Positions 541 to 19,192 of a stretch of DNA of 38,969 nucleotides are shown in pieces. Source of the stretch: Desulfurococcales archaeon (lineage in GTDB: Archaea; Thermoproteota; Thermoprotei_A; Sulfolobales; Desulfurococcaceae). A model generated the notes under the pieces. It worked only from the letters and a program-made list of their open reading frames with translations. It did no database searches and was not told where the DNA came from. How positions within the stretch are numbered: position 1 is the first letter of the stretch; each line of letters opens with the position of its first letter. A program made the translations under genes and the position numbers. The stretch is taken from contig JALVIT010000051.1 in assembly GCA_027028545.1 (NCBI GenBank), positions 1 to 38,969 on the forward strand. The letters run 5' to 3'.

Positions 541-906
541 TTGTTTGACGAACTAATAGATATACTCGGATTCCTTGGAGCACTTGGAGACTACAGCTAT
601 ATAGATAGACTTGGAAATGCAATAGATGAATCGACGATGATAGAATCACTGAAAGATGCCATTAGAATGTATCATACAGTACTAAATAGATGTAAAAATA
701 ACTGCTATGAGGTCAATGAGGGAGAATATATTGTATGTGTAAGGGTTGAACCAGATAAGCTTGAGGAATCCTTAAATAAACTATTAGCTATGATCGCGTC
801 CAAGCCTAGGATTGGGCAGGTAAAGCTCGCGAGGGAGATCGCTACAAAATCCTATGCTAGGCTTTTAAAGATAAGAAATACTAAATGTGGGGGTGGTTCT
901 ACGTGA
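541..906 (+). CDS. csa5: Type I-A Cascade small subunit Csa5 (Cas11a)
   Basis: Small 121-aa protein immediately upstream of cas7; GDYSYIDRLGNAIDESTMIESLKDAIR and IGQVKLAREIATKSYARLLKIR resemble Csa5; TTG start with GAGGGA upstream. Confidence 0.75.
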   Translation: MFDELIDILGFLGALGDYSYIDRLGNAIDESTMIESLKDAIRMYHTVLNRCKNNCYEVNEGEYIVCVRVEPDKLEESLNKLLAMIASKPRIGQVKLAREIATKSYARLLKIRNTKCGGGST

Positions 907-1991
907 TCATAAATCTATCCCTCTCAGCCCGGATCCTTGTAAATGCTGAAGCATTAAATATGGCTGAATCGGTTGGAAACTATACTCGACATAGGAAGGC
1001 TCCAGTGATACTCTATGATTCTGAAAAGAACGAATACTCTGTAATATATGTTCCAGCCGTTAGTGGGGAATCACTAGCTCACTCCTATCAAGAGTTATTA
1101 GCTAAAATAGCGTATGACAAAAAACTGCCGGTGACAAGGCTCGATCTTAGGGGTTTCTACCCGAAGTTCTCGAGTAAAGATATAATAGACAAATACTATG
1201 CTGACGAACTAGCAAAGGTTCTGGGAGGGGTTAAAGATAAGGTATCACAGGTTCTAAGTAAGATGAGCGTTTGCGATATTGAGAAGACGATCTTGAAGAC
1301 GAGCGTAGTAGCTGATGTAACTGGTTTCTTAGTAACGGATTATATGGTTAAGAGGACTTCACCGATAAAATTCTCCTATATGCTACCAACACTAGATGCA
1401 ATATCTAGCGGCGGTGTATCCGTAACTCCACAACTACATACCAGGTATATGCCAGAACCAGTAGAGAGGGAGCAGGCATTATTCTACCTAGAGAATAGTA
1501 GTGCACTATATAATCTATCCATACAGCTAGCCGTCTCCGATATAGCCAGGCCACAAAACTGTACAGATGATAAAGCTAAAGATCAACAACTCGTCAAAGA
1601 GTTTAAGCAAAGGGTTGAAGCAGCTTTAGATGCATTAATAGCTCTTATCGATGGATTAAACCTAGGGGCTAAGAGGAGTAGGAATAATCCATTATGGAGT
1701 GTTAAGAGCATAGTAGTGGCTTTAAGTAAGGGACCCATAGAATTCATTGTATCGCCTGGGCTAGATAAAAACTATTTGAAGGAGACTATTGAAAGAGCTA
1801 AAGCACTAGCCTCCTCGATCCCTAATGAAACAATAAACATCTACTACTACACCATCGAAAAGCTCCCATTAGCAGAGTTAGACGATATTAAAAACGTCAC
1901 ACTGAAGGAGACAAACTCGCATACAGAGGCATTAACGGAAGCTAAGAAGAAGATAATGGATCTAGTATCTCTAGCATTACTGATTAGATAG
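903..1991 (+). CDS. cas7: Type I-A Cas7 (Csa2/DevR family); GTG start at 903 more likely than 885
   Basis: VIINLSLSARILVNAEALNMAESVGNYTRHRKAP is the typical Csa2 N-terminus; purine/G-rich SD-like gtgggggtgg precedes GTG 903. Confidence 0.9.
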   Translation: MIINLSLSARILVNAEALNMAESVGNYTRHRKAPVILYDSEKNEYSVIYVPAVSGESLAHSYQELLAKIAYDKKLPVTRLDLRGFYPKFSSKDIIDKYYADELAKVLGGVKDKVSQVLSKMSVCDIEKTILKTSVVADVTGFLVTDYMVKRTSPIKFSYMLPTLDAISSGGVSVTPQLHTRYMPEPVEREQALFYLENSSALYNLSIQLAVSDIARPQNCTDDKAKDQQLVKEFKQRVEAALDALIALIDGLNLGAKRSRNNPLWSVKSIVVALSKGPIEFIVSPGLDKNYLKETIERAKALASSIPNETINIYYYTIEKLPLAELDDIKNVTLKETNSHTEALTEAKKKIMDLVSLALLIR

Positions 1992-2002
1992 AGGGGAATA
2001 AT

Positions 2003-2929
2003 ATGAATAATATACGTCTTTTTTACACCCAACTCAAAACCCATTGGGGCTATATTGTAAGATATCCCGGTTCCTCAGCTTCTCAACCATCATTTATAGT
2101 ACCTCCCCCGCCCACTATTGTCGGGTCCCTAGCATATGCTATAGCTAGGTATTTCAGGATCAAGTCTCGAAAGGTTTTAGAAAAAAGGAAACCTATAGGG
2201 TTTGGCGGGGGAGTTGTTATAACTCCATTAATGAAGGATGTATTAGAATCAACGATCACGGCATCTATGGGTATAGAACTCAGAGGCGGGGGGAAAATAT
2301 ATGGAGTAACACATAGTATGGAGCCTTCAAGACTAGTCTCTATAATGTATAAGGGAGGTAAGGAGAGGAGTAGGGCGACAAAGGAAATACCGTCTATGGA
2401 TAGTATAAAATTCTATAGTGAAGCGGTACCACGAATAATAACGACTCTAGGAGCGGGATACACTATAGCACCTGGAATTGTATTCAACCTTATATGGGTT
2501 TTCAAAATAGATCTACTAGCCGATAAACTAGGGATTGATGAAGAGGTTTTAGACAATGAGCTCTCGAAGGCGTTAAATGGTATCATAAGGATCGGGGCTA
2601 AGGAATCCCTAGTATCCATTAACCCCTCCAAAAACATATATGTTAAGAATCCTAAAATAACTGGTGGTGGAGCCGAGTTTAAATCCATATTCTATCAATC
2701 AACTAGGTGTGTAGATTTGATTAAGGGTTCATCCCACATGGTTAAGCTATACGGACTAGATTATAGGCCCATGGATTACTATTTACCAGCCTATATGGGA
2801 TCAAACAACTTCATAATACCCTTAATAGATGAATTCCTCATACCAAGATTTAGATTGAAGAATAATTGTTTAGCCTTCTCACCGGGTGATGAATATAAGT
2901 ATTTAGTGGTAAGTGGATATGTCGAGTAA
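2003..2929 (+). CDS. cas5: Type I-A Cas5
   Basis: N-terminal TQLKTHWGYIVRYPGSSASQPSFIVPPPPTIVGSLAYAIAR is a Cas5a hallmark; position in operon. Confidence 0.85.
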   Translation: MNNIRLFYTQLKTHWGYIVRYPGSSASQPSFIVPPPPTIVGSLAYAIARYFRIKSRKVLEKRKPIGFGGGVVITPLMKDVLESTITASMGIELRGGGKIYGVTHSMEPSRLVSIMYKGGKERSRATKEIPSMDSIKFYSEAVPRIITTLGAGYTIAPGIVFNLIWVFKIDLLADKLGIDEEVLDNELSKALNGIIRIGAKESLVSINPSKNIYVKNPKITGGGAEFKSIFYQSTRCVDLIKGSSHMVKLYGLDYRPMDYYLPAYMGSNNFIIPLIDEFLIPRFRLKNNCLAFSPGDEYKYLVVSGYVE

Positions 2930-4121
2930 TAATTATTATATAGATCTACTCCCTCCAGGCTCTTTTGGTAGAGAGCTTGAAATAGCACTCTATACAGCAA
3001 TATTCAATAATCTTAATCCGCTTCTTAAAAACAGAATTAAGGAGTTGATCAACACCGGATACATTAGATTAACCCAGACAGAATTTGATCAGTTGATGAA
3101 GACTATTGTTAGTGTAGTAGGATCTATTCTTCCATGTAAGAATAGAGCAGATGTTAGACCCAAACTATATGGTACTGGTGCCAACGATTACAAGATCCTT
3201 GGATCTATGATTGGCAAGAAGATGATAGATAAGAAGCAGCCATGTCTAGATGTGATAGACTATATTAGGAATAGTATAGGTACCAGCTATCCCGGATTAT
3301 TCGAAGACAAATCCTCAATACAACTAGTTAGAACACATCACTTCTCCGCACAGAGGAATTATCCCGTTGATATCAAGAGGGTTATGGGGTATCATAACCT
3401 TTTAACCTTCCTAGGAGGATGCATATCATTATTATCAAGTATTAATCTAAGAATGGGGGGTGAGAGGCCTAAACGTGTAGAGGTATATATTACACCAAAT
3501 GAATCCATAAACGTGCTCAACTACTCAATAGTATATACAATAATAAACGATTATGGTAGTATAAACCGGGATTGTAAGACCACTATTGATAAACCACAAA
3601 ACGTTGTGAAAAACCTACTAAACCTTGAAAGTATTAGTTTTGAAGTAGCTTTATTGATGGCGCTGATAATATACCTATATAAATATAATAGATACGTTAG
3701 AAGATTCACCCTCTCAAATATAGACTACTTCAACCTAGTAAAAATGGATGCTGAACAGAGGGGACAGATACGCTGGGTTAAACCCCTGATATTATCCGGT
3801 ATGTTCGGGAGAATAAACACGATCATAACAAGAACGGGTGGTAGAATAAACCTTATAGATACACTATACAACATGGTCAAAAACTATAACATACTTAAAA
3901 ACTTGAAGAGAAAGAAACAAATGATTCCAGAGATCGTGGAGGAATATCAAAGAGTAGTTGCAGACACTATACATTCAATATATAGATATCTCGAAACAGA
4001 GGATGAAACACTATTAATAACTATTGCAGCCGATCTAGCCAGACTGGTATCTAGGCTTGAAAGGAGTAATCTCGCCAGCTATACAGGGCCACTTACGAGA
4101 TTAATCTCTATACTGGCTTAA
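2913..4121 (+). CDS. cas8a: Type I-A large subunit Cas8a-like
   Basis: 402-aa protein between cas5 and cas3'; HHFSAQRNYPVDIKRVMGYHNLLTFLGG region; overlaps the cas5 stop. Confidence 0.7.
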   Translation: MDMSSNNYYIDLLPPGSFGRELEIALYTAIFNNLNPLLKNRIKELINTGYIRLTQTEFDQLMKTIVSVVGSILPCKNRADVRPKLYGTGANDYKILGSMIGKKMIDKKQPCLDVIDYIRNSIGTSYPGLFEDKSSIQLVRTHHFSAQRNYPVDIKRVMGYHNLLTFLGGCISLLSSINLRMGGERPKRVEVYITPNESINVLNYSIVYTIINDYGSINRDCKTTIDKPQNVVKNLLNLESISFEVALLMALIIYLYKYNRYVRRFTLSNIDYFNLVKMDAEQRGQIRWVKPLILSGMFGRINTIITRTGGRINLIDTLYNMVKNYNILKNLKRKKQMIPEIVEEYQRVVADTIHSIYRYLETEDETLLITIAADLARLVSRLERSNLASYTGPLTRLISILA

Positions 4122-4132
4122 GGGTTTAAATT

Positions 4133-5965
4133 ATGGTTAGGAAGGGTGTAGAAAAACTAGTCTCCTCCCTAGAAGAATGTAAGGATAATCAGTGTTTTAG
4201 AGTATTTATAGCTCCAACAGGATATGGCAAAACGATCTCATCTCCCCTACTCCTTGATAAAGCCCGTAGGCTTGGATTAGCCTATGGGTTAATACATGTA
4301 GTACCTCTCAGATCCCTTCTAAGGGAAATATATATTGAAAAGTTTAGGAATACTGGTTTCCTTACAGGTTATCAATCAATGGATTATATTAGGGAGGGTA
4401 TTAAATCACCCTATTATCTCAGGGAATTAATAGTTACAACCCTCGACAGCTTCTTCTACAACATATATAGGATACCTATAGCCGAATTCCATAAGATAGC
4501 TGGGAGATACTCTCATGGACACTATTACCCTATATATCTATCCCTCTACTCGTCAATTGTAGTATTCGATGAAGCACATATGTATTTAGGCTATACCGAC
4601 AAACCATATATTAAAGCACTATTGTTATCAATAATCGAATTCTTAGCTAATAGAGGCATACCTATAGTAATCGAGACAGCCACTATGAAGACAGATTTTT
4701 TAGCGGATATAATCCATGAGGCAAATAAATATATTAAGAAAGATTCAATGAAAATACTATATGTAAGAAGCTCCAGAAAAATAAATCCACAAATAAAAAG
4801 GTTAAAGAGTATAGGTTTAGAGGTCGAAGAAATATATGATAAAGAATACACTAATGAAAATAACATAGTATGGAATACGGAATTAATAAATAAAGAATCA
4901 ATAATCAATAAAATATTAGAATATTGTAATTCTGAAACTGTATTAGTCATTAGGAATACAATTGCTAAAACGGTAGAGACTTATAAGATGATCGGTGAGA
5001 AATGCAATAAGAAAGTATTAATTCATGGATTACTAGATAATATTGATCGTGATAAAGCAGTAGACTTGATAGAAGAAATAAATAGATTAGGAAGAGGAGT
5101 TATAGTAGCAACCCAGGTAGTTGAGGCAGGTGTTGAAATAAATTCTAGGATCATAATAACAGATCCAGCTCCGATAGAGAACTTGGTTCAGAGAATCGGT
5201 AGACTATGTAGGGGCAAATATAGGAAAACACTAGATGTATGCAAATATTCAAAGGATGGAGCGATAGTTTACATAGTCAAAGCTGATCCCCGAGATATTG
5301 GGCGTAAATATGATGGTATCTATAATGGAAAACTAGTTAAAGAAACGATCACATGGATACGGGATAACATAGATAAGAATAGGGAGATCGAATGGCGATT
5401 ATTCGACAACATAACTAAGAAAAATAAAGATCTGGTCATCAATTATATCTCATTCGTAGATCTGCTTGAGAATGAAAACTATATAGAACATGTAGAGGAC
5501 AAATCCACTCTCCACCAATTCACTTCAGAGTATCTAAAACATGATATACCACCGGGAGAGATCATAGACTACTTTGAGGGAATTGGTATATATGGTTTAA
5601 GAAATATCCCATTAACGATAGGCTATAAGAGAGATGAAGAATTACGATATCTAATATTGAGTCTTGAAAAATTTAGATCCTTAGTTAAGGCTGGCTGTAT
5701 AATGCATAAACAGATATATGATAAACACAAGCCATATCTATTAGTTACCGTGAGAACTAGTGATAAAATTAATAGGATATATGAGGTATTATCCAACGGC
5801 TTTATCGAAGATCTAATTTATGGGAACAGCTTCAGGAAGATAATTAATATCTATAAGCCGGAGAAGATAAGCATATTACCAGATCAAAAGGTATTAGACA
5901 CATATATTGAGCTAGATCCTAGATGTTATGAGGAAGGATTAGGTGTTATTCTTGAAACAAAATAA
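4133..5965 (+). CDS. cas3: CRISPR-associated helicase Cas3'
   Basis: Walker A APTGYGKT, DEAH box VFDEAH, motif VI-like QRIGRLCRG. Confidence 0.9.
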   Translation: MVRKGVEKLVSSLEECKDNQCFRVFIAPTGYGKTISSPLLLDKARRLGLAYGLIHVVPLRSLLREIYIEKFRNTGFLTGYQSMDYIREGIKSPYYLRELIVTTLDSFFYNIYRIPIAEFHKIAGRYSHGHYYPIYLSLYSSIVVFDEAHMYLGYTDKPYIKALLLSIIEFLANRGIPIVIETATMKTDFLADIIHEANKYIKKDSMKILYVRSSRKINPQIKRLKSIGLEVEEIYDKEYTNENNIVWNTELINKESIINKILEYCNSETVLVIRNTIAKTVETYKMIGEKCNKKVLIHGLLDNIDRDKAVDLIEEINRLGRGVIVATQVVEAGVEINSRIIITDPAPIENLVQRIGRLCRGKYRKTLDVCKYSKDGAIVYIVKADPRDIGRKYDGIYNGKLVKETITWIRDNIDKNREIEWRLFDNITKKNKDLVINYISFVDLLENENYIEHVEDKSTLHQFTSEYLKHDIPPGEIIDYFEGIGIYGLRNIPLTIGYKRDEELRYLILSLEKFRSLVKAGCIMHKQIYDKHKPYLLVTVRTSDKINRIYEVLSNGFIEDLIYGNSFRKIINIYKPEKISILPDQKVLDTYIELDPRCYEEGLGVILETK

Positions 5966-6884
5966 AAATGTATTTAAGCTTATAGAGGAGCATTGGCCCC
6001 TCTCATATGTTTTCGTTAATGAAGGGATTAAGCTGGTTCCATTAAAAGATCATTTGATCTCAACTGGTAAATTAATGGAATGTTTATTCAGTAGAAGATT
6101 CAAATATATCAGCAAATTAGATGTTAATGTATCCGAGCTATTATATACTGCAGGAGCTTTACATGATCTAGGTAAAGCTTCTAGATACTATATTAATATA
6201 TTTAAGAAGATAGATGGTCATAGTATTTCATTCTATCTTCATGAATATATAATGTATGTATTAACATCATATATTAACACGGCAGCATCCACAGAACGTG
6301 GAAAATCCCAGTTTACAGAATATGTCAACATATTAGGAGAAGCTATTGTGAGGCACCATGTAGCTATGGGAGGAAGGCATCCGGCATATATATTGATTAG
6401 GCAGGAGAAAAATAAAAGGAATAAACTAGCTCAGATAATATTTAATGCTCTAAAACTACTCGATCCCCAGTCATTTATAAAGACAGGATATATAGTTTGT
6501 GGAGGATACCCCTTCTGTAAGGAGACTATGGATAGAGTTAAAGAATCTTATTATGACGTGAAAAATCTCTCGAATATTGGAGCCATAATCCGCCTCCTAG
6601 AATATAGGCTGAAGAAGATGTCAAATCCAAACCCTACAACACTTAAGGTTATCCAGGCTTTATCTGGGGCATTAATCATAGCCGATAATATATCCGCATT
6701 ATACGAGAGAACCAGTTTTGAGAAAGATGCTGAAGAGCTAAAAGAGGATATACCTAGCTTCACAGCTTATTGGCTTAGGGAACTCTATGATGGGGAAAAG
6801 GGGAGGTTAATAAATTGTTTGAAGAATATCTATGAAGAGGAGAAGATTGAGAAGGTTATGAGGGCTATTGGTGTTTGGCGTTGA
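5943..6884 (+). CDS. CRISPR-associated HD nuclease Cas3''
   Basis: HD signature AGALHDLGKASRYY, downstream RHH motif; overlaps cas3'. Confidence 0.85.
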   Translation: MLFLKQNKNVFKLIEEHWPLSYVFVNEGIKLVPLKDHLISTGKLMECLFSRRFKYISKLDVNVSELLYTAGALHDLGKASRYYINIFKKIDGHSISFYLHEYIMYVLTSYINTAASTERGKSQFTEYVNILGEAIVRHHVAMGGRHPAYILIRQEKNKRNKLAQIIFNALKLLDPQSFIKTGYIVCGGYPFCKETMDRVKESYYDVKNLSNIGAIIRLLEYRLKKMSNPNPTTLKVIQALSGALIIADNISALYERTSFEKDAEELKEDIPSFTAYWLRELYDGEKGRLINCLKNIYEEEKIEKVMRAIGVWR

Positions 6885-7765
6885 TCGTTATAAGTTTTGA
6901 TGGGAAGAGGGTGTTGTTTTCTGAGCCTCCGCGTAAATTCTATATGATCCATGTGTCCCTCCACGTGTCTAATCCGGCGATCCTGCCGCCTTTTACTGGT
7001 AAGGTTGTTAAATCCTTATTGATCAAGGGTAATCCCGATCTTGAGAAGGTGTTTAAATCTAGTACTCCCGGCTATCCTAAGCCGATCCATATAACTCCTC
7101 TAGGTTATAGGAGGAGGGATAAGAGCGTAGTCTTTCTATGGAAGAAGGATAGGTCTAGATATATTGAGGCTAAGCCCGGCAGACAATACTTCTTCATAGT
7201 ATCCTGTAGTGAGGATGTATCAACGATGGTTTTAGACTCTATAATGGAGATCAATGGTGTAAAACTATTCAACACCGAGTGGAGTATTGATGCAGTTACA
7301 GCATCAACCCACGATCTACCAAGCAGTAAACCCCTCGTAAGACTCGATAATGCTAAATCGGTTAAGATAATGTTTAGAACACCGGTACAACCAATAGATC
7401 CATATAAGAAGACGATCTATAAAAGGATGAACATACTACCAGGAATACTCCTAGGATACAATGCTGGAGAGATAACCAGGATGTATAAGAGGGGTCCAGA
7501 ATACTGGAGGATCCTAGACATACTAAACTATGTATTAACAGAGAGCATAACATATTGGAAAACAGTCAAACCAATAGAAATACTATATGATAACAAACTA
7601 ATACCAACACTTACAGGCTATGTAAAATACTGGATAACCCTAGATGGAGTCGACGAAAATTCAAAAATACTAATAGAGAATATACTGAGCCATGCAGCAA
7701 TAATGGGAGTTGGATCAAGTAGATCGATCGGATTAGGACATATTGAAATAAAGGTTGAACACTAG
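6875..7765 (+). CDS. cas6: CRISPR RNA endoribonuclease Cas6
   Basis: C-terminal glycine-rich loop GVGSSRSIGLGHIEI; RAMP-like fold, last gene of the cas operon. Confidence 0.85.
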   Translation: MALIVISFDGKRVLFSEPPRKFYMIHVSLHVSNPAILPPFTGKVVKSLLIKGNPDLEKVFKSSTPGYPKPIHITPLGYRRRDKSVVFLWKKDRSRYIEAKPGRQYFFIVSCSEDVSTMVLDSIMEINGVKLFNTEWSIDAVTASTHDLPSSKPLVRLDNAKSVKIMFRTPVQPIDPYKKTIYKRMNILPGILLGYNAGEITRMYKRGPEYWRILDILNYVLTESITYWKTVKPIEILYDNKLIPTLTGYVKYWITLDGVDENSKILIENILSHAAIMGVGSSRSIGLGHIEIKVEH

Positions 7766-11570: not shown

Positions 11571-12506
11571 ATGTATGAAGGATTCAACACTCAGAAGAAG
11601 TATAGGATCGGTAAATACGTTATCGGTGGATTACCCGGTGAAACACCCCTATGGCTTATAGGCTCGATGTTCTACATGGGTGATAAGGTGCTCATAGATG
11701 AGAGGGGGGTCTTTGACAGGGTTAAGGCTCGGGAAAGACTGGAGGATGCGATCAGTATAGCCAGTGAACACGGGGTAGTGTTTGGCCTCGATGCTGTATT
11801 CCCAACCGTTGAGAGCGTTGAAGCTATAATGCCCTTCATAGCCGAATACGATATACCGATCTTCCTAGACTCCCCCGACCCCCTGGCTCGTGCTAAAGCA
11901 TATACCATGTCTAGAGAGCTTGGAGTATCTGATCGGGTTATCGCTAATGGATTATTTATAGATAGTCCTAAGGAGGAGGTGGAGGCTCTGAGGGATAGTG
12001 GTATAGAGACAACTGTCCTAATGGCGTTTGATCCTAGGAATCCATATTATTCGATGAAGCCCGAGAATAGGCTGAAGCTTCTAGAGGAGAAACTACTATC
12101 CTTAGCCAGGGAGGCTGGAGTTAAGAATATTATAGTTGATGCAATAGTTATCGATCCAGCTAGTATAGCCTTTAGCGCTGAAACAATATACATGGTTAAG
12201 AAAAAATATGGTTACCCATCCGGTTGTGCACCGGCTAACGCTTTGGGACCGGTATCTAAGAAGAGTGTTGGATTGGAGGGTATGTATAGCGTTCATGGCG
12301 GTGTAACAGTTTATCTTAGGGTCTTTGGAGCGGACTATGTAATGTATGGCCCGGTGCAGCGTATAAAATATGTTGCTAAATCAGCTGCATTGGTTGATTC
12401 ATTACTAGGGTATGGTTTGAAGCATAGGGGATATAGGATTCCTAGAGAACACCCCTTGAGGAGATATTTTAGGAATATCCAGAAACTATTCGCATCATCT
12501 AGCTAG
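11571..12506 (+). CDS. MtrH-like tetrahydropterin/tetrahydrofolate:corrinoid methyltransferase
   Basis: IGGLPGETPLWLIGSMFYMGDKVLIDERGVFDR, NIIVDAIVIDPASI, YPSGCAPANAL: typical MtrH-family motifs. Confidence 0.85.
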   Translation: MYEGFNTQKKYRIGKYVIGGLPGETPLWLIGSMFYMGDKVLIDERGVFDRVKARERLEDAISIASEHGVVFGLDAVFPTVESVEAIMPFIAEYDIPIFLDSPDPLARAKAYTMSRELGVSDRVIANGLFIDSPKEEVEALRDSGIETTVLMAFDPRNPYYSMKPENRLKLLEEKLLSLAREAGVKNIIVDAIVIDPASIAFSAETIYMVKKKYGYPSGCAPANALGPVSKKSVGLEGMYSVHGGVTVYLRVFGADYVMYGPVQRIKYVAKSAALVDSLLGYGLKHRGYRIPREHPLRRYFRNIQKLFASSS

Positions 12507-14151
12507 GTCTACGTGGGAACTCTAAGCTGTTAATCCATACCCTCATATAATTCTCCTCCTCGGCTAAATTAATATGTCTAATACTCCTCAATAATTTACC
12601 GTGGAGCATATAATAGTCTCTATCCATAACGGCTATCCTAAGCCCCGTTAATACTAGGTTTCCGCCATAAATGATCTTATCAACGCTATCAGCCGGTACA
12701 AGCTCTAGATCTATTAGATCCCTTGGATCTATGCTCGAGCCAAAAGTTCCGGCAACAACTATCCTCTCGAGATCATCTATGTATAGCCCGGCTTTATCGA
12801 GTAGTATCCTCCAAGCACTACGCACCGCTGCATAAGCCTTCTGGAACTCTCTAAGATCCTTCTGTGTAAAGAATACTTTATGCTCTCTATCCACAACTAT
12901 AGTTTTTACACCATCAACTATTCTATAGCCCCTCCTAAACCTACCCCTATGATCTATTAAGCCATGCCTCCACAGCTCTGCAACCAGGCTTATTACCCCG
13001 GATCCTAAAAGCCCTCCACGACTGCCCCTATACCTATACTTGAAGACCGGTTTATCCCTCCTAAACCCCTCGATCCAGACCCTATATATACCCCCCATCA
13101 CGACCCCCGAACCCTTAGATATGTATCCCTCGAAGGCTGGTCCCGCCGGTGCACTGGTTGCATAAATCTCCTCTAAGTCCTTAACCAATATGACCTCAGT
13201 ATTAGTTCCAAGGTCTATTATTAGATAGGGCTTCTCGAGATCCATATAGATGGATGCTAGTAGTTCTGAATATGCATCACCACCAACATATCCAGATATT
13301 AAAGGCATAAGTATTGTCGGTGTCCTACCAGTATATGTTATGAATGGTCCACTGAATAATGGCTGATATGGTTTCTCGGCTAACCTATCCACCGGTAACC
13401 CCATGTATAGATGCTCCATAACGCTATTCCCAGCTATGAATACTATACCAGCCCTATACCTCTCGGCGAGTCCTATGATCTCTCTTCTGAGCCTATCCAT
13501 CATCTCGCCGAGTTTATCGGGGTTATCAAGTATGATCGTCATCCTAGATACTATATCCGATCCATAAACGTTTAATGGGTTAAACACGTATCCTTCATCA
13601 ATGATCCTACCATTAAGATCGATGTTTTGATATGCTATCTTAGTAGTTCCAAGATCAATTATTAAAGCCTTATCCGTCTCACCAGGTGATGTTAGATAAT
13701 ATGTGTCTAAGAATCTAAGAACATTTAAACCACCAATATGTGCTTCGCCGGGTAGTATCGGTAACCCTCTACGGAGGGGTAGGAGCTTATTCGATAGTCT
13801 AATTGGTTTAACCACCGGTTTAATACTTCTAAGATCTATATTTAGAGAATATATCGAGATCTTTGGAGGCCTTATCGTTGGAGCATAAACCCTAACGTCT
13901 CCGAGAACCCTAACCTGGCAGGCTAGTCTCTCACCACCACTAAGCCCCCTCAATACTTCATTACCTGTCGGAGGGGATACTTCGCCCTCAACCCTTACAC
14001 GGCATAATCCACACAGCCCATTGCCACCACATGGTAGGGGCATTATACCCTTAGAAGCTAATAGTATTCCTAGATTATCCCCTCTACAAGCATAGAATAC
14101 CCCCTTACCAACAACTTCTATTTTAACCCTACTACACTCCCTACTATTCAT
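12499..14151 (-). CDS. RACo-like ASKHA ATPase with N-terminal 2Fe-2S ferredoxin domain (reductive activator of corrinoid protein)
   Basis: Fe-S ligands CGGNGLCGLCRVRVEG...LACQV; ASKHA motifs IDLGTTKIAYQ, LIIDLGTNTEVIL, VAGTFGSSID. Confidence 0.85.
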   Translation of the reverse strand: MNSRECSRVKIEVVGKGVFYACRGDNLGILLASKGIMPLPCGGNGLCGLCRVRVEGEVSPPTGNEVLRGLSGGERLACQVRVLGDVRVYAPTIRPPKISIYSLNIDLRSIKPVVKPIRLSNKLLPLRRGLPILPGEAHIGGLNVLRFLDTYYLTSPGETDKALIIDLGTTKIAYQNIDLNGRIIDEGYVFNPLNVYGSDIVSRMTIILDNPDKLGEMMDRLRREIIGLAERYRAGIVFIAGNSVMEHLYMGLPVDRLAEKPYQPLFSGPFITYTGRTPTILMPLISGYVGGDAYSELLASIYMDLEKPYLIIDLGTNTEVILVKDLEEIYATSAPAGPAFEGYISKGSGVVMGGIYRVWIEGFRRDKPVFKYRYRGSRGGLLGSGVISLVAELWRHGLIDHRGRFRRGYRIVDGVKTIVVDREHKVFFTQKDLREFQKAYAAVRSAWRILLDKAGLYIDDLERIVVAGTFGSSIDPRDLIDLELVPADSVDKIIYGGNLVLTGLRIAVMDRDYYMLHGKLLRSIRHINLAEEENYMRVWINSLEFPRRPS

Positions 14152-14885
14152 TTCCCAGATCCACCGAGTTTATTTACTAGCTTAACGGCTTCTATAGCGT
14201 TTGAAGCCCATCCATCAGCCCCGATCCTCTCCGCGTATTCCCTAGTTGTAGCCGCTCCCCCGATAACTATCTTAACCCTACTCCTCAACCCCCTCCTATC
14301 CAACTCCTCTATAACCCTCTTCATATATCTCGATGTCGTTGTTAGTAATGCACTCATACCAAGTACATCTGGTTTATACTTCTCAACGGCCTCAATAAAC
14401 TTCTCAGCATCAACATCAACACCTAGATCAATCACTTCATGCCCCGCTGCCTGAAGCATTACAGCTACTAGGGTTTTACCTATATCGTGTATATCGCCCT
14501 TAACGGTTCCAATCACGATCCTAAGTCTCCTACCCCCTCCAAGCCCTCTAGACTCCTCCCTGATCAGTGGTTCGAGCTTCTTCATAGCCTCCTTAAATAT
14601 CTCTGCAGCCTCTATGAGTTCAGCTATAAAGTATTCCCCCTCCTCATATAGTCTTCCGATCTCCTCCATAGCCTTACTCATAGGTCCTAGAACTATCTCT
14701 GTAGCCTTAACACCCATACCCAATAGTTTATCAATGGTCTCCAATACACACTCTCTATCAAGATCAACCATACATCCTCTAAGCTTCTCGAATAATCTAT
14801 CTCTATCCAACACTACAGCACCGCATCTGGTAGGGAATACTTTTATCAATATGGTATGGATACTAGTATGATAAATATATTCCAT
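14148..14885 (-). CDS. Corrinoid (B12-binding) methyltransferase corrinoid protein; true start probably near 14815 (GTG/TTG before LDRDRLFEKL)
   Basis: B12-binding signature GDIHDIGKTLVAVMLQAAGHEVIDLGVDV, cap domain GPMSKAMEEIGRLYEEGEYFIAELIEAAEIFKEAMKKLEPL. Confidence 0.9.
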   Translation of the reverse strand: MEYIYHTSIHTILIKVFPTRCGAVVLDRDRLFEKLRGCMVDLDRECVLETIDKLLGMGVKATEIVLGPMSKAMEEIGRLYEEGEYFIAELIEAAEIFKEAMKKLEPLIREESRGLGGGRRLRIVIGTVKGDIHDIGKTLVAVMLQAAGHEVIDLGVDVDAEKFIEAVEKYKPDVLGMSALLTTTSRYMKRVIEELDRRGLRSRVKIVIGGAATTREYAERIGADGWASNAIEAVKLVNKLGGSGK

Positions 14886-14901
14886 CCATAATATAGGAGG
14901 G

Positions 14902-15891
14902 GTGTATAAGGGATTGATTAGAACCAGCCATGTTGGAAGCTTCCCACTACCCCCTAGCTTTGAGAATATTGAGAGGATAGTAGATGACCTATATAGTATA
15001 GGGTTAGATGCACCACCCTACCCCCAGCTACGTAGCTTCATAAACATTTATCTCGACCCCCTAAAGGATCTGGGGGTACTTTTTGAGAGGGATGGATTCT
15101 ACTTCCTAGACGATCCCGAGAAACTCTCCCTACTCGAAGACTATAAACCACATGTATTGGAGGCTGAGCAAACAATAGAGATCGTTAGAGGGGGGAGGTA
15201 TGGGTTTAAATGGCTACGAGCACCAGTCACAGGGGTATTTACACTAGCTTCAAGAATATACTTGTCAAGGAATATAGGGGAGGGTTTGAAGGCTACACTA
15301 CTAGCTCGTAAAGACCTCATAGAACCAATGAAAACATATGTTGCCAAACACCTAGAATACATGTCCCGGCTGGGATACAATATATTATTCATTGATGAAC
15401 CCGTTCTAGGGGTTATTGTTGGGCGTAGGAGGATACTATTCGGCTACACTGGGGAGGATATAGTTGAAACCATAAATACGCTATTCAACAAACTATCCGG
15501 AGAACACGGAATACATGTATGTGGAAGAATATCCCCAAGACTCTTCAAACTCCTAGCATCCGTGGAGAAACTAGACATATTAAACTTCGAATTCCACGAC
15601 TCACCAACTAATCTCAAAGTTATTGATGGAGAACTACTAGTATCTAGTGGGAAGAAACTAGCACCTGGTATAGCTAGCTCTAAAAAACCAGTTGTGGAGG
15701 ATATCGAGGAACTTAAACAAATACTCTTAGGGACCGGGGAGAGGGTTGATTGGAGGATAGACCTAGTCTCAGCCGATTGCGGATTCGGCGGATTATCGGT
15801 TGAGGGAGGTGATCAGTGGAGGGCTTATAGGATTGGGATCGAGAAGCTTAGGAACATAGTTAGAGTTGTTAAATCGATCACTCTAGACTAG
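14902..15891 (+). CDS. MetE C-terminal catalytic-domain-only protein (core methionine synthase-like)
   Basis: N-terminal RTSHVGSFPLPP; zinc-ligand pattern HVCGR ... FEFHD ... SADCGFGG; lacks the N-terminal MetE repeat domain. Confidence 0.8.
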   Translation: MYKGLIRTSHVGSFPLPPSFENIERIVDDLYSIGLDAPPYPQLRSFINIYLDPLKDLGVLFERDGFYFLDDPEKLSLLEDYKPHVLEAEQTIEIVRGGRYGFKWLRAPVTGVFTLASRIYLSRNIGEGLKATLLARKDLIEPMKTYVAKHLEYMSRLGYNILFIDEPVLGVIVGRRRILFGYTGEDIVETINTLFNKLSGEHGIHVCGRISPRLFKLLASVEKLDILNFEFHDSPTNLKVIDGELLVSSGKKLAPGIASSKKPVVEDIEELKQILLGTGERVDWRIDLVSADCGFGGLSVEGGDQWRAYRIGIEKLRNIVRVVKSITLD

Positions 15892-16596
15892 ATGTTTCGA
15901 GAATATCCTTATACCCTCCATGGGTTCAAAGGGTGATGATAAAACTATACCACTACAATTATCCATGATCAATTCCATGTGGTCTCTAAGTTCATCAACA
16001 CCTATAAATGGTTGATTAAGCTTCCTAAACAATTCTATATTCCTGCCAAAACCTAGTAGTATGAAAACATATATATCTGAACCCCTCTCTCTACCCATAC
16101 GGCAAACCCTTACTAGCTTATCCTCTCTATCCTCTCCATAGTTTATAACATGGTAGAAATCGGCTCCGAGATCGATCCTCTCTTTAATCTTGTCTAATGG
16201 ATAATTCAAGCTTATGATCAAGCCTTTACGGAAAACATAACCCTTCTTCCTCAGTAATTCTAAAGCCTCCTCACTACCGATATCTTCAACGATCCCGCCC
16301 CTCCATGGCTTATCCCCCCTAAGCAGTACTAATCCATCAATACCATACTCCCGGATAGCGTTAGCGATCGATAATAGTGCTAAACGATTAATATCGTAAA
16401 GCCTCAAATGGGGGTAAACACTGAAGCCATACATGAGCTTGATATACATAGCTGTAGCAACACTAAACAAACCAGGATAACCACCGGGGCCCTCGGGAAT
16501 AGTGTAGGCATCAAAAACATCCCTACCAGCATCTAGGAGTCTATCAACATCCCTCCTACTCCATGGAACAAGCTCAAACAAATACAAATATACCAC
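15883..16596 (-). CDS. Short methylenetetrahydrofolate reductase-like (MetF-family) protein
   Basis: LFELVPW start, IDGLVLLRGDKPWRGG motif, GADFYHVINYGEDREDKL; 237 aa; convergent 9-bp overlap with the MetE-like gene. Confidence 0.6.
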   Translation of the reverse strand: MVYLYLFELVPWSRRDVDRLLDAGRDVFDAYTIPEGPGGYPGLFSVATAMYIKLMYGFSVYPHLRLYDINRLALLSIANAIREYGIDGLVLLRGDKPWRGGIVEDIGSEEALELLRKKGYVFRKGLIISLNYPLDKIKERIDLGADFYHVINYGEDREDKLVRVCRMGRERGSDIYVFILLGFGRNIELFRKLNQPFIGVDELRDHMELIMDNCSGIVLSSPFEPMEGIRIFSKHLV

Positions 16597-16719: not shown

Positions 16720-17553
16720 GTGTGTATCGATGGGGTGATGCCTATTGGTTATTGGGTAGATCCCTCAATAGATAAGCTGTTCCAGGATAAAGCCCATCTA
16801 TTCCTCATAGTATTGAATTATCGATGGGAGAGGGGTAGGGTAGAAGCTGAATATATTGCTCAACTATTGAAAAAGTATGGTATAGGACCGGATGATAAGA
16901 TACTCGATCTAGGATGCGGTAATGGTAGGATAGCTATACACTTAGCCTTGAAGGGTTATCGTGTAACGGGTCTGGATTATTCAAAGCTATTCATAGAGGA
17001 TGCCGTTAAGAAATCAAGACAATACAACGTATATGACAGGGTTGAATTCATACATGGAGACGCATATAGGCTAGATAAAATATTCAGCCGGGAGAGGTTT
17101 AAGGTAGTCCTCATATACTGGACGACACTAATAGGGTATAGCCTCGATCCAGATAAGGATCTAGAATTACTAGAGAAGATCTATAAAATAGTAGAAAAGG
17201 GAGGATATCTCATGATACTGAACCATGCATCGATCGAGAATTTAAACTATAGAGCTCTGGAAGAAGGTGTAAGTTATTATGTCGATCTGGGTGAATACGC
17301 GTTCCTCGATAAGGCATCATATGATCCGGCTAGATCAATACTACATGTAACATGGAGGTTCTACCGTAAAAGAGGTAATGATTTGGAGTTTATCGATGAA
17401 ATATCCTACGATCTAAAAGTATACTCTATGCATGAAATAGTTGAAATGGGTGAGAAAGCTGGATGGAGGCTTAAAGACATGTATTGTAGCGTAAAGACCC
17501 TTGAACCATATAAGCCTGGTAGATGTAGTTTAAACATAGTATTCACCAGATAG
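16720..17553 (+). CDS. Class I SAM-dependent methyltransferase
   Basis: KILDLGCGNGRIAIHLALKGYRVTGLDYS motif I/II. Confidence 0.85.
   Translation: MCIDGVMPIGYWVDPSIDKLFQDKAHLFLIVLNYRWERGRVEAEYIAQLLKKYGIGPDDKILDLGCGNGRIAIHLALKGYRVTGLDYSKLFIEDAVKKSRQYNVYDRVEFIHGDAYRLDKIFSRERFKVVLIYWTTLIGYSLDPDKDLELLEKIYKIVEKGGYLMILNHASIENLNYRALEEGVSYYVDLGEYAFLDKASYDPARSILHVTWRFYRKRGNDLEFIDEISYDLKVYSMHEIVEMGEKAGWRLKDMYCSVKTLEPYKPGRCSLNIVFTR

Positions 17554-18133: not shown

Positions 18134-19192
<1,059 letters not shown>

Follow-up and report, generated by a model that had tools for sequence, protein, structure and literature searches.

A five-gene locus in a Desulfurococcales archaeon

We analyzed a 38,969-nt stretch of DNA from a Desulfurococcales archaeon (contig JALVIT010000051.1; hereinafter the window), which is contig C51 of a 1.86-Mb, 96.5% complete host genome. 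Positions 11571–16596 hold five packed genes with overlapping ends, which probably provide a methionine synthesis route centered on a catalytic-domain-only relative of the methionine synthase MetE (hereinafter designated Mes). The original prediction had placed a corrinoid-dependent methionine cluster here; the arrangement and coordinates are as it gave them, and the identities it assigned to the five adjacent open reading frames (ORFs) hold, three being clear by Pfam and two, Mes and a short methylenetetrahydrofolate reductase (MTHFR)-like protein, by profile and structure comparison.

The first gene (11571–12506, + strand) encodes a 311-aa member of the MtrH/MtgA family, a predicted methyl-pterin:corrinoid-protein methyltransferase. 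Its MtrH domain (PF02007, 1.2e-39) bears out the label “MtrH-like” in the original prediction, but its best solved relative is the corrinoid/folate enzyme MtgA (6sj8, E 4e-45) rather than MtrH. D74, D100, N126, D190, D195 and N223 are invariant in 22 orthologues; D100, N126, D190 and N223 are pterin-site residues, and D100 aligns with an Asp position occupied by Ala in the 6sjo chain. The second gene (12499–14151, – strand) encodes a 550-aa RACo-type reductive activator of corrinoid proteins with an N-terminal 2Fe-2S domain and a C-terminal ASKHA domain (Pfam RACo_C_ter 4.6e-51, Raco_middle 7e-22, Fer2 2.6e-6; RACo structure 3zyy, E 3.5e-39), in which C41, C47, C50 and C78 are kept in at least 95% of 28 sequences.

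The third gene (14148–14885, – strand), sharing a 4-base overlap with the RACo gene, encodes a corrinoid (B12-binding) methyl-carrier protein of at most 245 aa with PF02607 and PF02310 domains (B12-binding 1.2e-31, B12-binding_2 1e-15; structure 1y80, E 5.7e-45), whose DxHxxG motif (D131, H133, G136) is invariant in 34 orthologues. The fourth gene (14902–15891, + strand) encodes Mes (329 aa from a GTG start at 14902). Orthologues of the corrinoid protein mostly align only from its residue 19–33 onward; judged from orthologue lengths, the corrinoid gene probably begins near 14813 (GTG), and a TTG start at 14914 is more likely for mes than the GTG at 14902. With these later starts, about 100 bases would remain between the two genes for divergent promoters.

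The fifth gene (15883–16596, – strand) encodes the 237-aa short MTHFR-like protein, a predicted methylene-pterin reductase. It has no Pfam match, escaping PF02219, and is recognized only by TIGR00676 (1.1e-5). Its AF2 model (predicted local distance difference test score, pLDDT, 94) returned MTHFR structures as all of the top Foldseek matches, with 7wmz, 8uy1 and 5ume first, and the active-site Glu (E8) and the Asp of the flavin adenine dinucleotide site (D95), within ELVP...LRGD, are nearly invariant in 18 sequences, placing the protein in the MTHFR (MetF) family.

Mes, a predicted core synthase apparently outside MesA–C

Mes matches the Pfam family Meth_synt_2 only weakly (3.3e-4, 20.5 bits; cut-off 21). 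Profile-profile alignment (hhalign) of 88 Mes homologues with split MetE gives 99.9% probability (E = 2.4e-35, 24% identity), and the predicted model of Mes (pLDDT 95) has MesD (3rpd) and MetE as its best structural matches. The zinc ligands H205, C207, E230 and C293 align with those of MetE, confirming the zinc site noted in the original prediction, and S13, Q42 and D165 align with MetE Ser433, Glu484 and Asp599 (E. coli numbering, transferred by us), the roles of these residues in MetE-type synthases being taken from earlier work (PMC7857596). Q42, D165, H205 and C207 are invariant in 88/88 homologues and S13, E230 and C293 show one or two exceptions each, every one of the seven being retained in at least 86. 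As originally described, no N-terminal folate-binding domain is fused to Mes; Mes is the sole PF01717 match in the genome, which contains no second MetE-like gene (PF08267 was not searched). The predicted function of Mes is methylation of homocysteine from a methyl-corrinoid.

The fold is also common to a Methanosarcina mazei methyltransferase (4ay7, template-modeling score 0.67) and to URO-D, which would suit an MtaA-like enzyme with a different thiol, for example coenzyme M, as methyl acceptor, rather than one making methionine. We regard this as very improbable, given that the four-ligand H-x-C...E...C zinc site and the MetE amino-acid pocket S13/D165 are conserved, that the closest folds are those of MesD and MetE, and that genomes with Mes lack another methionine synthase, Mes and MetE being nearly mutually exclusive (see below).

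Four classes of core synthase, MesA, MesB, MesC and MesD, have been defined, with MtrA or CoFeSP proposed as methyl donors and without mention of MtrH (PMC7857596); a study of core-MetE discusses MtrH for methanogens only (PMC7005905). Like Mes, these proteins consist of the MetE catalytic domain without a fused folate-binding N-terminal domain and keep the zinc and homocysteine residues, and a corrinoid protein is the proposed donor for MesA, MesB and MesC, as for Mes. A Gln at position 484 is reported for MesA and MesC (PMC7857596). Mes has this Gln and the H-x-C motif in common with MesA but lacks the close resemblance to MesA and split MetE that defines that class, sharing 24% identity with split MetE. 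NF002119, which we take to be the model for MesA, scores 54 bits (cut-off 258). MesB occurs with carbon monoxide dehydrogenase/acetyl-CoA synthase (CODH/ACS) and does not conserve the Glu484 equivalent, whereas the host genome lacks CdhD and Q42 is present in 88/88 homologues; MesC, likewise found with CODH/ACS, usually has H-x-H, with His for Cys643, whereas C207 is present in all 88. MesD belongs to aerobes and is accompanied by MesX (DUF1852), which had no match among the scanned proteins of the window, a genome-wide search for DUF1852 not having been made. Mes thus appears to fit none of MesA, MesB and MesC and to represent a further core family, set apart from MesB and MesC by their published descriptions. 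It also differs from MesA–C in its surroundings: a dedicated small corrinoid protein, predicted to be loaded by the MtrH-like enzyme in genomes without CdhD, stands where MtrA or CoFeSP is proposed for those classes.

Distribution of the five families across the order

To place the locus among its relatives, we clustered all ORFs neighboring Mes homologues at 45 loci. Mes is accompanied by the corrinoid protein at 27 loci, RACo at 24, MTHFR at 16 and MtrH at 16, and the five cluster families are the sole ones found at more than five loci, the next family occurring at five. The arrangement recurs across the order and is not due to chance; moreover, the gene order differs between loci, which makes linkage through mere common descent less likely.

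At the genome level we sampled 61 genomes of the order, the host genome included, absences resting on family searches. Mes is present in 35 and a strong MetE (>200 bits) in 13, and a single genome, G038, has both (contig C1, 1,875,953 bases: Mes at 244845–245807, split MetE at 590901–592825); since Mes stands alone in G038, it may serve another role there. MetH/BHMT (PF02574) was found in 0 of the 61 genomes, the host included, though nine controls gave matches, so that the search for an alternative MetE or MetH foreseen by the original prediction returned none in the host. Neither Mes nor a strong MetE occurs in 14 genomes (for example G004, G017, G026, G029 and G044), and none of the 14 has MTHFR; these are probable methionine auxotrophs, or may use yet another synthase.

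A corrinoid-protein homologue (E<1e-30) is found in 34 of the 35 Mes genomes and in 0 of the 26 others (p 2e-16). This count includes paralogues of 43–53% identity, some beside the methyltransferase MttB, and we therefore also applied a stricter criterion, a close corrinoid orthologue, which 24 genomes have; 23 of them are among the 25 genomes with a close MtrH (E<1e-80) and one among the 36 without. Nearly all genomes with MtrH (24/25) have Mes. MTHFR, short or canonical (E<1e-10), accompanies an MtrH cluster or MetE in 36 of 38 genomes and occurs in one of the 23 others, this sole exception being G024, in which the cluster is cut by a contig end. All main associations stay significant when the genomes are collapsed by genus pattern (p 4e-11 to 8e-4), and the co-occurrence anticipated in the original prediction is accordingly strong.

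These distributions bear on the possibility that Mes belongs to a split MetE as its catalytic half and uses methyl-pterin directly, with the corrinoid protein, MtrH and RACo serving something else. Thermophilic archaea usually have MetE in split form (PMC7857596), with a catalytic half homologous to Mes. The single PF01717 match in the host genome speaks against such an arrangement, most MetE genomes showing a second, N-terminal-domain-like match, as do the low identity to split MetE and the near-constant company of a corrinoid homologue. The MetE Glu is moreover replaced by Q42, as it is by Gln in the methylcobalamin-using MesA (PMC7857596), and we consider direct use of methyl-pterin by Mes improbable.

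Homologues of Mes extend beyond the order, with strong matches in many families of the wider phylum, mostly without the cluster, suggesting that the module is largely order-specific. In a quick tree of Mes, most MtrH-linked sequences fall in one weakly supported group (Shimodaira–Hasegawa-like approximate likelihood ratio 82), and the MtrH-link label requires 7 changes compared with 18.8 when shuffled.

Possible methyl donors and the proposed route

The established gene identities, active-site conservation, predicted folds, linkage and co-occurrence, together with a genome that has neither CdhD nor another known methionine synthase, lead us to infer, with a probability of roughly 80%, that the five genes constitute a complete, self-contained methionine route whose reactions, direction, pterin and protein-to-protein transfer are all predicted; the interpretation originally offered for the locus is thereby supported. 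The short MTHFR would reduce methylene-tetrahydropterin to methyl-tetrahydropterin, the MtrH/MtgA-like enzyme would use this to methylate the Co(I) center of the small corrinoid protein, and Mes would move the methyl group from the methyl-Co(III) form onto zinc-bound homocysteine. RACo, with its 2Fe-2S cluster and ATP, would re-reduce corrinoid that has lapsed to Co(II).

MetH likewise passes a methyl group from methyl-pterin through a corrinoid to homocysteine, with reactivation, and the overall chemistry proposed for the cluster is alike. MetH, however, is one protein with a PF02574 homocysteine domain, which has no match here, and is reactivated by S-adenosylmethionine (SAM) and flavodoxin, in place of which the cluster has RACo. 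In net terms, the route would be a MetH dispersed over separate genes, its homocysteine domain swapped for a MetE-type one.

The cluster might instead serve catabolic or salvage demethylation, in which the corrinoid protein receives its methyl group from a methylated compound through a substrate-specific methyltransferase encoded away from the cluster, MtrH feeds the pterin pool and Mes draws on the same carrier. MtgA, to which the MtrH-like protein is closest among solved structures, acts as a methylcorrinoid:tetrahydrofolate methyltransferase (PMC12478193), similar mtrH-corrinoid-activator neighborhoods have been interpreted as methylotrophic (PMC10033731, PMC9723716), and some Mes relatives adjoin MttB or URO-D enzymes. 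The conserved cluster, by contrast, contains no substrate-specific methyltransferase, and MttB is found neither in the host nor in any MtrH-cluster genome (MtaB, MtmB and MtbB were not searched), which weakens the alternative that the original prediction had itself raised. The methyl-pterin-making MTHFR, furthermore, is linked to MtrH and tracks the presence of methionine synthase, being missing where no such synthase is found. A demethylating role of the cluster is therefore unlikely.

The pairing of MTHFR with MtrH recurs in different forms. Four genomes without the short MTHFR (G039, G045, G049 and G059) have a canonical MTHFR (PF02219 and PF12225, fused as PF12225-PF02219 in the loci scanned) adjoining mtrH, and at locus L067, from another region of the Mes tree, Mes, RACo and MtrH are closely followed by a canonical PF12225-PF02219-type MTHFR. 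Of all the evidence, this repeated pairing speaks most strongly for a direction from methylene-pterin through methyl-pterin to corrinoid.

Several points weigh against a methionine route. The sequence leaves the direction of the MtrH step unfixed, and MtgA, its nearest characterized relative, runs from corrinoid to folate. RACo is missing from the locus in G027 (L152), and G031 (81% complete), alone among the genomes, lacks both Mes and MTHFR while having MtrH. Except for the genus collapse, the co-occurrence tests take related genomes as independent, so that kinship is partly controlled, and the MTHFR cut-off was chosen post hoc, leaving weak matches (1e-4 to 1e-7) in G005, G032, G038, G048 and G058 uncounted.

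As a refinement of the original prediction, members of the Mes family in other genomes adjoin further candidate methyl donors or share the genome with them. The 35 Mes genomes divide into 24 with MtrH, six with CODH/ACS, two with MttB beside Mes (G018, G047) and one each with a URO-D-type methyltransferase (G032), a cut contig (G024) and a full MetE (G038). A strong CdhD is confined to six of the 61 genomes, all with Mes; judged by CdhD, the MtrH-cluster genomes lack CODH/ACS, and the host in particular has none, as the original prediction had supposed from the locus. CODH/ACS was accordingly rejected as donor in the host, while it is possible in the six relatives. We lean, by a small measure, toward a fifth core synthase family with an exchangeable donor, in which the corrinoid protein would act as the hub for methyl groups from methyl-pterin via MtrH and MTHFR, from MttB- or URO-D-type methyltransferases, or from CODH/ACS; at least some archaeal orphan mtrH-corrinoid-activator clusters would then be methionine modules and not signs of methylotrophy or methanogenesis.

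At L053:9001–12025, L054:287–5227, L056:9001–12067, L063:9001–14045 and L108:7305–12200, Mes homologues neighbor a corrinoid protein and a methyltransferase of the MttB family, and a methyl group might there pass directly from a methylated amine into methionine. At L039:8995–13836 and L048:4635–9501, Mes, RACo, a corrinoid protein and a URO-D/MtaA-type methyltransferase form one run, followed at L039 by a GH38 alpha-mannosidase; the L048 methyltransferase is assigned only via a model that includes it.

In the open-licence literature searched, we found no description of the five-gene module. The closest neighborhood, in a metagenome-assembled genome (MAG) of Ca. Methanomethylicus mesodigestum, places a metE homologue and the gene for a corrinoid protein next to an orphan mtrH; one possibility raised there was that mtrH and the corrinoid protein act together in anabolism (PMC7886697). 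It concerns one methanogen-related MAG, with no MTHFR or co-occurrence analysis, and is likened to the cluster by description. The MtgABC glycine betaine system and the marine MtgBCDE (PMC12478193) share with the cluster a pterin/corrinoid methyltransferase, a small corrinoid protein and a corrinoid activator, and in the marine bacteria methionine synthesis draws on the corrinoid hub as well, in what has been termed a split cobalamin-dependent methionine synthase (PMC12478193). The Mtg systems, however, have a quaternary-amine methyltransferase, absent from the cluster, and the split synthase there is without a MetE-type domain.

The proposed route would fill in the missing methionine synthase of a group of hyperthermophilic archaea with neither MetE nor MetH, and would give the core synthase a concrete methyl donor not drawn from the Wood-Ljungdahl pathway or methanogenesis; earlier work left open which donor core synthases use in vivo (PMC7857596, PMC7005905). 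It also affects the interpretation of metagenomes, in which an orphan mtrH next to genes for a corrinoid protein and an activator has been read as indicating methylotrophic methanogenesis or the use of quaternary amines (PMC10033731, PMC9723716); in the present case such clusters would instead go with amino-acid biosynthesis. Comprising five soluble proteins, the module is directly testable.

Adjoining the cluster, a SAM-dependent methyltransferase gene (16720–17553, +) has CpaM (corrinoid-protein-associated methyltransferase) as its best NCBIfam match (1.6e-20, under the cut-off); it was rejected as a sixth member, being absent from the families kept near Mes. Upstream, at 885–7765 (+), lie CRISPR-Cas genes encoding Cas7/Csa2 (DevR family), a Cas3-type helicase and Cas6, with other ORFs interspersed. 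Farther downstream, a TnpB/IS605 OrfB-like protein (18332–19021, –; 229 aa, TTG start) is N-terminally short in frame and is perhaps the product of a decayed transposon gene.

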